Positions 3,290 to 63,600 of a stretch of DNA of 64,000 nucleotides are shown in pieces. The notes beneath the pieces are model-generated. The model had not been told where the DNA came from and made no database searches. It saw nothing but the letters and a program-made list of their open reading frames with translations. The stretch is from Cylindrodendrum hubeiense. Taxonomy: Eukaryota; Ascomycota; Sordariomycetes; Hypocreales; Nectriaceae. Where the stretch lies: the NCBI GenBank assembly GCA_014621425.1, contig JAANBB010000020.1:207722-271721 (forward strand). Reading direction: 5' to 3'. Every line of letters begins with the position of its first letter. Within the stretch, counting starts at the first letter, position 1. Position numbers and translations under genes: made by a program.

Positions 3290-3418
3290 AGCAATTTGGC
3301 GCAGTGGAAGCGCGGTATGTTGTCACCTTGGAACTACGATTCGAACCCGAGTAATGACTAACTTATCCTAGCCGGGCTCATAACCCGGAGGTCGCACGAT
3401 CGAAACGTGCAATTGCTA
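3290..3418 (+). tRNA. Initiator tRNA-Met (CAT), copy 1, interrupted after the D arm
   Basis: Exons 3290-3314 and 3372-3418 give a 72-nt tRNA with every stem perfectly paired: acceptor AGCAATT/AATTGCT, D stem GCGC/GCGC, anticodon stem CCGGG/CCCGG with loop CTCATAA, T stem GCACG/CGTGC. Initiator hallmarks are present: the A1-T72 pair, three G-C pairs closing the anticodon loop, and T-loop ATCGAAA (A54, no TTC). Internal promoter boxes are visible as TGGCGCAGTGG (A) and GATCGAAAC (B). A 57-bp insertion, 3315-3371, lies between positions 26 and 27. It is not the canonical 37/38 tRNA intron site, and it begins GTATGT and ends CTAG with an upstream GACTAAC. Function as a tRNA requires its removal. 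The exons are identical to the copy at 4273. An alternative is a dead copy carrying an insertion, which exon conservation argues against. Confidence 0.8.
3315..3371 (+). other. Spliceosomal-type intron inside initiator tRNA gene (copy 1)
   Basis: A 57-bp GT-AG segment with 5' GTATGT, a branch-like GACTAAC and 3' TAG; the branch A to AG spacing is about 10 nt. These are the same signals as in the protein-gene introns of this window. It contains GATTCGAACCC, which resembles a Pol III B box. Splicing is inferred, not shown. Confidence 0.6.
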
Positions 3419-3439
3419 CACCCTCAATATGAGGATTTC

Positions 3440-3444
3440 TTTTT
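3440..3444 (+). terminator. Pol III T-run terminator for tRNA copy 1
   Basis: TTTTT lies 22 nt downstream of the tRNA 3' end, with a second T6 run at about 3449-3454. This is the expected oligo-T signal for RNA polymerase III on the coding strand. Confidence 0.6.
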
Positions 3445-3504
3445 GCCATTTTTTACTAATTGATATCCTGTTTTCGCCCTCAAGCGAATTTAAACTCGAA
3501 GATC

Positions 3505-3546
3505 TATTACTAACTTGTCATTTTGGCCAGGCTCATAACCCGGAGG
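3505..3546 (+). pseudogene. Decayed fragment of the interrupted initiator tRNA
   Basis: The segment keeps the intron 3' part (ATTACTAACTT) and the anticodon arm (GGCTCATAACCCGG), with a G-to-A change at position 29 of the anticodon stem. Similarity ends immediately after the variable loop and no 5' half was found. It looks like a third, truncated copy of the same interrupted tRNA, lying between the two intact ones. Confidence 0.6.
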
Positions 3547-4272
3547 GTGAACCTTGCCATTCGGCTCAGAAAGTTTGAATTGTTGAAAAAGATTCCAAAA
3601 ACCGCACGGTCAAACTAGAATCTTCACATTATAAAGTCATCTCAAGACGTTGGAGCATTTCTTTGAGTTGCGGCAGGAGTCAGCGGGATTCAGGTCATCT
3701 AGTCCAGAACTCCGGCATCGGAGGGCCTTCAGAGGTCGTCCCTCTCATCATCAAGTATCAGACTGACCCTCAAACCATCGTTAGATATAGAAACTAAGAG
3801 CCTTAATCCCCATAACCCTTTACTTGATGAGATAAAAAGGATTTCAAGTGCCCGTATTAACTACTCTACCTCTACTTTAAAAGCCCACCTGCTGGCCTTT
3901 CCCGGCTATGGCTTTCGGTATTTTATCCATCTACGGATCTTTAGGTGGCACCCGTGTCGCGCAGGGCTAGCAGAGACGTCACCAAAATCAACAAGAACCC
4001 AAAATCAAATCAAGTACTTGTAGTATGACTATTATAGCGATCGCAAGCCTATTGAATTAAGCAATATCGTTAGAAATAAACGTGATCTCCTGGTTACCGA
4101 GACACCAAAATCGGGTTGACCCCCAAAGAGGGTGCTTGGAGCAATACGACCGAGGCCTTAAATGGGCGACATGCTATTGTGTGACTCACAGCTTACTCAT
4201 CAACTTGAGCTGGATGTGGCACCGATGCGGGCTGATATAGTGGATTATGGAAGTCAACTCCCAATCAGCTAA
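3547..4272. other. Intergenic region between tRNA copies
   Basis: No open frame of useful length and no recognised repeat. The 20 bp just upstream of both tRNA copies are weakly alike (CAACT...CAGC...CTAA), which suggests that the duplication unit included a little 5' flank. Confidence 0.5.
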
Positions 4273-4398
4273 AGCAATTTGGCGCAGTGGAAGCGCGGTA
4301 TGTTATCACCTCAAACTCAATATGATTTGAGCCACGACTAACTTATCCCAGCCGGGCTCATAACCCGGAGGTCGCACGATCGAAACGTGCAATTGCTA
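4273..4398 (+). tRNA. Initiator tRNA-Met (CAT), copy 2, interrupted after the D arm
   Basis: Exons 4273-4297 and 4352-4398 are identical, base for base, to copy 1 and fold into the same initiator tRNA with A1-T72 and the CTCATAA loop. The insertion, 4298-4351 (54 bp), sits at the same position 26/27. Its ends match copy 1 (GTATGTTATCACCT; GACTAACTTATCCCAG), but its middle has diverged in sequence and length. Identity of exons with divergence of the insert is what is expected if the tRNA product is under selection and the insert is spliced. Transcription by Pol III is expected from the internal A and B boxes. Confidence 0.8.
4298..4351 (+). other. Spliceosomal-type intron inside initiator tRNA gene (copy 2)
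   Basis: A 54-bp GT-AG insert with GTATGT, GACTAAC and CAG, which are the three elements a fungal spliceosome recognises. Compared with copy 1, the first 14 bases match at 13 positions and the last 16 at 15; the centre does not align well. Splicing is inferred. Confidence 0.6.
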
Positions 4399-4428: not shown

Positions 4429-4434
4429 TTTTTT
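4429..4434 (+). terminator. Pol III T6 terminator for tRNA copy 2
   Basis: TTTTTT lies 31 nt after the tRNA 3' end, with another T7 run shortly downstream. Confidence 0.6.
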
Positions 4435-60648: not shown

Positions 60649-63600
60649 ATGGCGTGTTCCCCGATTCGGGCCGCCATCGCTTTGGCGATGGTGTTAGTGG
60701 CACTCATGGCACCACTTGCCGCAGCGCTTCCGAATCTTCGCATCATGCCTCTCGGAGACTCAATCACCAAGGGTAACGGTTCCAAAGATCAAAAGGGCTA
60801 CCGAAATCGACTCCGTGAGAAGCTTCTCGGCCAAGATGTCGCGGTAGACATGATTGGCAGTCAGAAGTACCCGCCTACGGGCATGGCAGATAATGACCAC
60901 GAAGGTCACAGTGGAAGGGTTCTGGCAGAAATCAACACGTTTTGGAGGATGTCCATTCAGGCTCTTCCTAACGTAGTCTTAGTTCACGCCGGCACAAACA
61001 ACATGGACCTGGAAGTGGACCTTGAAGGTTCTCCAGCTATGTTGGAGAAAATCATTGATGGCTTATTCGAGAACGCTCCGGGTACCGTTGTCTTGGTTGC
61101 GCCAGTGATCTGGGCTAATAAGCCTAAAATGCAAGAAAACACTGATCGATTCAACTTGCAAGTTGAGGCCATCATCGAGAAGAGGCGAAAAGCTAGCGAA
61201 CACATTCTTAAAGTTCCAATCGACATCACTGTAACGGATCTTTCGGACGAAAAACATCCCAATGATAGTGGCTATGAGAAGATGGCTGTCGCCTGGTTCA
61301 ATGCTATCCTCGAAGTTGATGATCTTGGCTGGCTGAAAAGTCCTACCAAGGTGAATGCTGATGATCTACCGGGAATGGGCTTAGGTATCACCACCGAGAC
61401 CGACAGTTCCGAAGAGGATTACATAAATGGGCGTATCTGGAATAGATATGGCCCCATTTTCGATGGCTTCCGTACCTGGGAAGAAGTCGGCACAATCCGA
61501 GGCCCTGTTGAGAATGCCAGTCGAGAAAATGTGATTTTAGCTGACCTCGACGGCGATGGTATCGCAGACTATATCATTGCCGACGACGATGGTACGGTCC
61601 GGGCCTGGATTAATGGAGGCAAACCTAACGAGTGGAAGAGTCTCGGCAAGGTCAACCCCGACTGGTCGTCTGTCAAAGGAGATATGATCCGTCTGGCAGA
61701 TGTCGATAATGACGGCAAGGCCGATCTGATTGCATTGTACTCAGAGGGCGCCGCTAAAGTCTGGAAGAATACTGAGAACGGAGCTAAGTTTGAGCCTCTC
61801 GACTCGAAGTGGGCCACGGGGTTAGCGAAGAGCGATAAGATTCATTTCGAAGATGTCGATGGCGACGGATATGCCGACTACGTGATTATTTCCAGTACAG
61901 GTGCTGTCGAGTGGGCCCGCAACACACACAACAACGGCAAAGATAGTACGAAGAAGAACTGGGAAACTGCCGAGACGATCGCGCCGGGTCCCGACGGCAT
62001 TCCCGCCAACAGAGCACGACTACGCGACCTCGACGGAGACGGAATGGCAGGTGAGTTGTACAAGCCCCAAGACTAGTCGAGACACTTATAACTAATACGA
62101 AGCCAGACTATCTTATCGTTTACGCTGGTGGTTCCGTCAAGGCGTTGCGCAACACGGGCAAGCTCGATAGCGGCAATGGACGCAACTGGCATGATCTAGG
62201 CACTATCGCTCCGGGTATTGAGGGTGTCACAGGTGATATGATCCGATTCGCCGACATGGATGGAGATGGCCTGTCTGATTTCCTCGCGGTTGCTGAAGAC
62301 GGAAGCATTCGCATGTGGAAGAATCTCGGCATTGTCGTCGACAAGGGCTCGAGCCTACGGTTCGCCGATCTCACCGGCGACGGCAAGGCTGATATTATCT
62401 CCGTCGATGCTCGTGGCAGGGCCCGGGCGTGGATGAACGAGGGCGACGGCAAATGGAATTCCGTTGGGGAGATCTCGGCGGGCTGGGACGAAGATCTCTC
62501 ATCGTCTAGGATTGAGTTTGCCGATGTCAACGGCGACGGACGCGCTGATTACCTTATTATCTACGGTGGTGGCGCTGTTAAAGCATATCTTAACAACGGA
62601 GCCCTTCCAGACGTTACTAAGGGCCGTATCTGGCAGCCCGGCGTTGTCATCTCGGACGGTGTTGGTGTGCCGGGCAGCAAGGTCACGTTCGCCGACCTCG
62701 ACGGAGATGGCTATGCGGACTACCTCGTCCTCTACGATGGGGGTGCAGTCAAATGTTATCTCAACAACCAAAACATCCCGGCCCAGGAAGGGAAGCGCAT
62801 CTGGAAGGAAGCCACTACTGTAGCAACAGGAGTTGGCGAACCAGGTAGCAAAATCCGGTTTGCAGATCTGACGGGAGACGGCAAAGCAGAGTACATAGCT
62901 CAGTACGATGGCGGCGCTGCCAATGGGTACCTCAATATGGGCAACATCCCACCCGCCGGCAAGGAAAGAAACTGGAACCTCATGGGCACAATCGCCAAGG
63001 GTGTGACCCCTCAAGGCGATGTTCACTACGCCGATATCGACGGGGATGGCAAGGTCGACTATCTCGTCTCGTTCAGCGGAGGGAATGTCAACGCATACAT
63101 CAACGGGTTCGATTGGAAGCATGAGATGCCAGCCGACGACGGAGGCGACGACGGGAATGACGATGGGAACGACGATGGGAATGACGATGGAGACAACGAT
63201 GGAAGCGACGATGGAAGCGACGACGGGAATGATGACGGGAGCGATGATGGGGGCAATGATGGGGATGACGATGGGGACAACGACGGGGACAACGACAGCC
63301 CAAGCCCGAATTCATCAGCAACATCATCGGCAACATCAGCAGCAGCAACATCAGCTTCATCAGCTTCATCATCAGCAGCATCATCAACATCATCAGCTGC
63401 ATCATCAGCTTCATCAGCAGCTGCATCATCAGCTTCATCAGCAGCTGCATCATCGGCTTCATCGTCAGCAGCATCATCAGCTTCTAATGAATCAGGCACC
63501 ACCAGCGGGGGGGCCGGTAGTGATGACAATACCAGCCGCGACGGCTCTGTTGTATATATTGACCCGACAATATGGAACTCTGCGGAACCAACAGTCACCT

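Follow-up and report, generated by a model that had tools for sequence, protein, structure and literature searches.

Can the supply of an essential transfer RNA (tRNA) hinge on the spliceosome? This question is raised by the window analyzed here, a stretch of 64,000 nucleotides (nt) from Cylindrodendrum hubeiense (C113:207722-271721, within a 47.5-Mb genome of 798 contigs), in which two genes for initiator tRNA-Met are each interrupted by an insert resembling an intron of messenger RNA (mRNA) genes. In textbook accounts, nuclear tRNA introns lie at position 37/38 and are removed by a protein endonuclease dedicated to this task. An essential tRNA with an mRNA-type intron in all of its genes would break this rule, would make a tRNA one of the few small structured RNAs that are processed by the spliceosome, and would make translation initiation directly dependent on splicing. 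The sequence features described below lead us to consider it highly probable (roughly 87%) that these are functional initiator tRNA-Met genes of RNA polymerase III (Pol III), each with a U2-type spliceosomal intron between tRNA positions 26 and 27 that would be removed by the mRNA spliceosome.

Two Interrupted Initiator tRNA-Met Genes

Both genes lie on the plus strand, at 3290-3418 and 4273-4398, within the stretch (3290-4398) in which a preliminary description of this DNA had placed them. In gene 1, exon 1 (3290-3314, tRNA positions 1-26) includes box A, TGGCGCAGTGG, at 3297-3307, and is identical in six genomic copies. It is followed by a 57-nt intron (3315-3371) that starts with GTATGTT, contains CTAAC at 3358-3362, ends in TAG and includes the B-box-like GATTCGAACCC at 3338-3348, and then by exon 2 (3372-3418, positions 27-73) with the CAT anticodon and the T-loop ATCGAAA. 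Gene 2 consists of exon 1 at 4273-4297 (box A at 4280-4290), a 54-nt intron at 4298-4351, again starting with GTATGTT, with CTAAC at 4338-4342, a CAG end and a weak B-box-like GATTTGAGCC at 4324-4333, and exon 2 at 4352-4398. The preliminary description had reported a GT...AG insert between positions 26 and 27 in both copies, and both inserts indeed carry GTATGT and GACTAAC and end in TAG and CAG, respectively. The boundary between exon and intron is ambiguous by one G: the shifted cut yields the same product, and one of the two cuts alone gives GT-AG.

In each gene, exon 1 (25 nt) and exon 2 (47 nt) add up to 72 nt, and the exons are identical in both. When the exons are joined (GCGCG to CCGGG), ARAGORN reports a tRNA-Met(CAT) with a full cloverleaf, and the product has A1-U72, three G-C pairs in the anticodon stem and the ATCGAAA T-loop, which we take to be hallmarks of eukaryotic initiator tRNA. 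In the minimum-energy structure that RNAfold gives for the joined 72-mer without modifications, however, the D and anticodon region does not form the cloverleaf. The proposal that removal of the inserts restores two identical 72-nt initiator tRNAs is upheld. In their unspliced genomic form, none of the six copies is called by ARAGORN without its intron option, and with this option all six receive a wrong anticodon. Neither ARAGORN nor Rfam at its gathering score reports a tRNA in the window, so that both genes fall into a blind spot of these gene finders.

Between the two genes, on the plus strand at 3507-3546, there is a decayed partial copy of the initiator tRNA gene, with a branch-site-like TTACTAAC, an AG and the anticodon arm GCTCATAACCCGGAGG.

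Initiator tRNA Genes across the Genome

Copies were counted genome-wide by pattern searches of the assembly, each compared with the reversed pattern. The 5' half TGGCGCAGTGGAAGCGCG was matched at 10 places with at most 2 mismatches, six of them exact (reversed pattern: 1), and the 3' half at six places with at most 3 mismatches, all six exact (reversed pattern: 0) and at loci shared with the exact 5' halves. At the four inexact 5'-half matches, no tRNA was called in the region from 200 nt upstream to 400 nt downstream. The anticodon arm core GGGCTCATAACCC occurs seven times, in the six genes and at one place on C146 without a tRNA (reversed pattern: 2). The six initiator loci are located on four contigs (one on C13, two on C23, two on C113, which are those of the window, and one on C135); all six genes fit one exact 72-nt exon pattern, and all carry an insert of 54-59 nt at one identical point.

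The pattern searches, which allowed up to 2 or 3 mismatches per half, revealed no nuclear initiator gene without an insert in the assembly. The preliminary description had raised the possibility that translation initiation depends on spliceosomal processing of this tRNA, and the genome scan for an intact initiator gene, with six of six genes interrupted and none uninterrupted among the pattern matches, agrees with it. Because all six genes found are interrupted, the supply of initiator tRNA likely depends on the spliceosome.

The copies are far less similar outside the exons. The intron bodies without their end signals share 40-77% identity over 15 pairs (43-49% for shuffled bodies), and the flanks share 46-78% in the upstream 100 nt and 47-70% in the downstream 60 nt. 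The identity of the C113 introns to the other introns is near random (40-56%), which suggests that the intron predates the divergence of the gene copies; related species would then be expected to share it.

Other tRNAs carrying such an intron were sought with a scan that combined AGTGG, GTATGT and CTAAC and covers tRNAs with AGTGG in the D-loop; it produced 17 matches versus 8 for the reversed pattern. Five of the 17 are initiator genes, the sixth being missed since it has CTAAT, and in the other 12 no tRNA appeared after excision of a segment running from GT to any AG located 35-120 nt downstream. When the Rfam tRNA model was run against the genome, with 63 of 1339 candidates scored, 59 matches were obtained, none of them at the six initiator loci. 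Searches with the interrupted gene (viral and bacterial collections) and with the uninterrupted gene (viral collection) returned no match; these collections are not meant for fungi and are uninformative on relatives.

Spliceosomal Signals of the Inserts

The inserts resemble spliceosomal introns, as had been suggested from the window alone, at each of the three signals. The donor is GTATGT in all six tRNA introns, the branch site is CTAAC in five and CTAAT in one, with the last base of the motif being the 10th from the intron end, and the acceptor is CAG in five and TAG in one. When aligned with each other, the six introns agree throughout in GTATGTT at the start and, at the end, in CTAA(C/T), a short spacer with TCC as its last letters, and YAG. 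Both strands of the window together contain 2600 GT..AG segments that are 54-59 nt long; two of these reach the three-signal score of the inserts, namely the two inserts themselves.

These signals match those of mRNA introns from the same genome, for which we used 17 introns modelled in four tubulin genes by protein-to-DNA alignment (two models, both in one gene, are doubtful and lack CTRAY). In this set, CTRAY ends 10-24 nt from the 3' end in 14 of 17 introns, YAG forms the end in 15 of 17, and the length ranges from 50 to 191 nt, with 10 of 17 introns at 50-70 nt. Of the modelled tubulins, gamma-tubulin has 98% identity to a protein named from Fusarium oxysporum, and beta-tubulin matches a cluster named from Thelonectria olida at 97.1% and one named from Ustilaginoidea virens at 96.9%. 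These identities indicate that the host is probably a member of the Hypocreales, perhaps of the Nectriaceae. The donor and branch motifs also agree with those of Fusarium: for 2022 introns of four Fusarium species, PMC5677156 gives donor frequencies at +3 to +6 of A74, A42/T22/C32, G93 and T66, and CTRAY in 91% of the introns surveyed.

The spacer between branch site and acceptor is a separate observation: its sequence is conserved across the six introns beyond what splicing would be expected to need. As regards self-splicing introns of group I or II, no Rfam match was obtained in the window at the gathering score, and 54-59 nt is too short for an intron of either group.

Comparison with Other Interrupted Small RNAs

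Among the closest parallels is U6, the genes of which carry mRNA-type introns in Schizosaccharomyces pombe and other fungi. In S. pombe, U6 is a Pol III product from which an mRNA-type intron is removed by the spliceosome (PMC8917221), so the precedent of a spliced Pol III transcript invoked for fission yeast in the preliminary description is sound. For Colletotrichum, two U6 genes have been reported, one of them with extra regions (PMC6908651). In the genome analyzed here, U6 likewise has two matches, one of which is interrupted (L033, C41:36727-36888, minus strand) by a 58-nt insert of the form GTGAGT...ACTAAC...CACAG containing GTTCGAGCC; the second (L032) has no insert, and GGTTCGAACCC is located 253 nt from the start of this gene. 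Thus, the tRNA introns occur in the same genome as an interrupted U6 copy, but U6 belongs to the spliceosome itself and is interrupted here in one match of two, whereas the initiator tRNA is interrupted in all six genes found.

The introns of fungal U3 small nucleolar RNA are similar to the inserts in being spliceosomal introns in a small structured RNA and differ in the RNA and in the position. According to a 2017 article (PMC5832005), frequent interruption by an intron was at that time known for only two small structured RNAs, U3 and U6. Judged by length, three of the four U3 matches in this genome are full length (269-273 nt versus 274 model positions). In the alignment of the signal recognition particle RNA, inspection by eye reveals no comparable insert, and the RNase P RNA match (422 nt versus 301 positions) has long inserts, in which no GT..CTRAY..YAG was found within the range tried.

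Like the canonical introns of nuclear tRNAs, each insert is a single short intron placed between boxes A and B. The inserts differ from the canonical introns in the location at 26/27 instead of 37/38, in lacking a strict bulge-helix-bulge motif and in having mRNA-type signals. Non-canonical tRNA introns of red algae and archaea also lie outside the anticodon loop (PMC3978253), but have the bulge-helix-bulge and are cut by the endonuclease, whereas the inserts here carry spliceosomal signals. Among the papers listed by searches of the open-access literature, where subscription papers are mostly absent, none describes, as judged by title and start of abstract, a tRNA gene with a spliceosomal intron.

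Transcription Signals and a Possible Intronic B Box

All six initiator genes have the box A and the T-run terminator of a type 2 Pol III gene. A run of T5-T8 begins 21-30 nt past the tRNA in each of them; in the window, these are the T5 run at 3440-3444 and the T6 run at 4429-4434, both on the plus strand and likely the Pol III terminators of gene 1 and gene 2, respectively. In 53 other nuclear tRNA genes (L001-L008, L041-L066 and L090-L109), the first T4 run lies at a median distance of 25 nt, and 32 of the genes have it at least 20 nt away (in a subset of these loci, the median was 11 nt and the count 14 of 34); it is followed by G in 48 of the 53. From these comparisons, the terminators of the initiator genes look ordinary for this genome. 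The 21-30 nt trailer, in which a hairpin is possible by eye, was at one point considered to be special, an idea that was dropped because the distance is typical of other tRNA genes. The T4-run distances of the 53 genes fall into two classes, 1-11 nt (19 genes) and 17-52 nt (34 genes).

The internal promoter is less straightforward. The B box in the exonic T-arm, GATCGAAAC, which is presumably the initiator form, scores poorly on a matrix built from the boxes of 24 elongator tRNA genes, drawn from part of the tRNA loci. The B-box core TTCGA is present in five of the six tRNA introns and in the U6 intron, compared with one of 15 tubulin introns (the two doubtful models of the 17 being omitted) and 6.6% of random 56-mers of the window. 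In S. pombe, the B box of U6 lies in the intron. In gene 1, the intronic GATTCGAACCC has a score of 11.6, near the lower limit of the range covered by the 24 tRNA boxes (10.0-18.0), with a shuffle p of 0.002; for the other five tRNA introns, p ranges from 0.02 to 0.18, and for the U6 intron it is 0.017. In the C13 copy and the minus-strand C23 copy, the site with the best B-box score is elsewhere, near the 5' end. Because the copies are related and the tests are non-independent, we regard the intronic B box as a lead rather than as demonstrated.

We therefore put forward only tentatively, and with more doubt than conviction, the extended proposal that, in this lineage, the spliceosome is obligate for the initiator tRNA and that the intron is kept as the carrier of a Pol III promoter element, the intronic B box. 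If this is true, such a box, as in the interrupted U6 copy, would leave the T-arm of the tRNA free to diverge from the consensus of the B box, and the whole supply of initiator tRNA would pass through the spliceosome, tying translation initiation to splicing capacity.

Proposed Processing and Alternative Explanations

The anatomy and number of the genes, the match of their signals, which are kept in otherwise diverged introns, the terminators and the lack of a strict bulge-helix-bulge can all be read from the DNA, and from them we infer transcription by Pol III, splicing in the cell, the order of processing and the dependence of translation. In the proposed scheme, Pol III would transcribe a precursor of about 150 nt, trailer included; U1 would act at GUAUGU and U2 at the CUAAY branch site, and joining at YAG would release an ordinary 72-nt initiator tRNA.

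A competitor for the excision step is the tRNA splicing endonuclease, which would cut the inserts as non-canonical tRNA introns via a bulge-helix-bulge, as in Cyanidioschyzon and some archaea. Endonuclease-cut introns outside the anticodon loop, including ones with relaxed motifs, are indeed known (PMC3978253). Moreover, ARAGORN, the intron option of which permits inserts in the anticodon loop alone, places inserts there in other tRNA genes of this genome (e.g., L057, L058, L061, and L062), so that the ordinary tRNA-splicing enzyme is to be expected here too. The inserts themselves are not located at 37/38, and the check for a bulge-helix-bulge proposed in the preliminary description came out against this route, the strict motif being absent from all six genes at either of the two equivalent junctions. 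At the GT-AG junction, the central helix has three of four pairs and the outer helix two of three; however, inspection by eye shows that the three central pairs include two G-U pairs and that the remaining position is an A-G mismatch, and the inner helix has 0-1 of three pairs. The shifted junction has one of four central, one of three inner and three of three outer pairs. Such a score is not rare, given that at least three central and at least two outer pairs occur at 5.0% of 50,000 random junctions of the window. Furthermore, the ends of the introns are conserved (GTATGTT and CTAAY..YAG), whereas the tRNA endonuclease has no need of such conserved ends. Altogether, we consider cleavage by the endonuclease highly unlikely and spliceosomal removal of these introns, as judged from their signals, very likely.

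Spliceosomes act mostly on transcripts of RNA polymerase II (Pol II), and a longer Pol II precursor might be spliced normally, the tRNA being cut out later. The presence of box A and of T5-T8 runs 21-30 nt downstream in all six genes, as in other tRNA genes here, speaks against this scenario, and the case of S. pombe U6 indicates that a Pol III transcript can undergo splicing (PMC8917221), making the Pol II route very unlikely. The least likely possibility, in our assessment, is that the interrupted genes are non-functional relics and that the assembly lacks the genuine initiator gene, one without an insert. The assembly is fragmented and one decayed copy does exist (3507-3546), but the six copies on four contigs keep one exact exon sequence despite diverged introns and flanks, and all six have T-run terminators, a combination that points to selection on the exons; in addition, neither half of the gene yields an uninterrupted match in the pattern searches described above.

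Several observations weigh against the favoured reading of functional genes with spliceosomal introns on which the supply of initiator tRNA depends. In an assembly of 798 contigs, an uninterrupted nuclear gene could sit in a gap, and there is an uninterrupted tRNA-Met(CAT) on C360, a contig that we take as mitochondrial (28% G+C in the part fetched, and a tRNA cluster). Two guessed patterns failed to locate the nuclear elongator tRNA-Met, which may be interrupted or unlike the guess. The inserts may conform to the relaxed bulge-helix-bulge forms mentioned above. Exon 2 starts with C after the tRNA introns, versus the R favoured in Fusarium, where the motif rows of PMC5677156 have YAG followed by R in 94% and the base line of the same paper gives R 59%. 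Finally, in the survey with tRNAscan-SE 2.0 (PMC8450103), the expected CAT tRNA genes were present in all but 6 of 173 eukaryotes, the 6 being ascribed to mislabelling, which implies that the trait is either limited to a lineage or tolerated by the program.

Elsewhere in the window, at 63134-63484, overlapping low-complexity open frames contain dense short tandem repeats with units of 9 to 45 bp.
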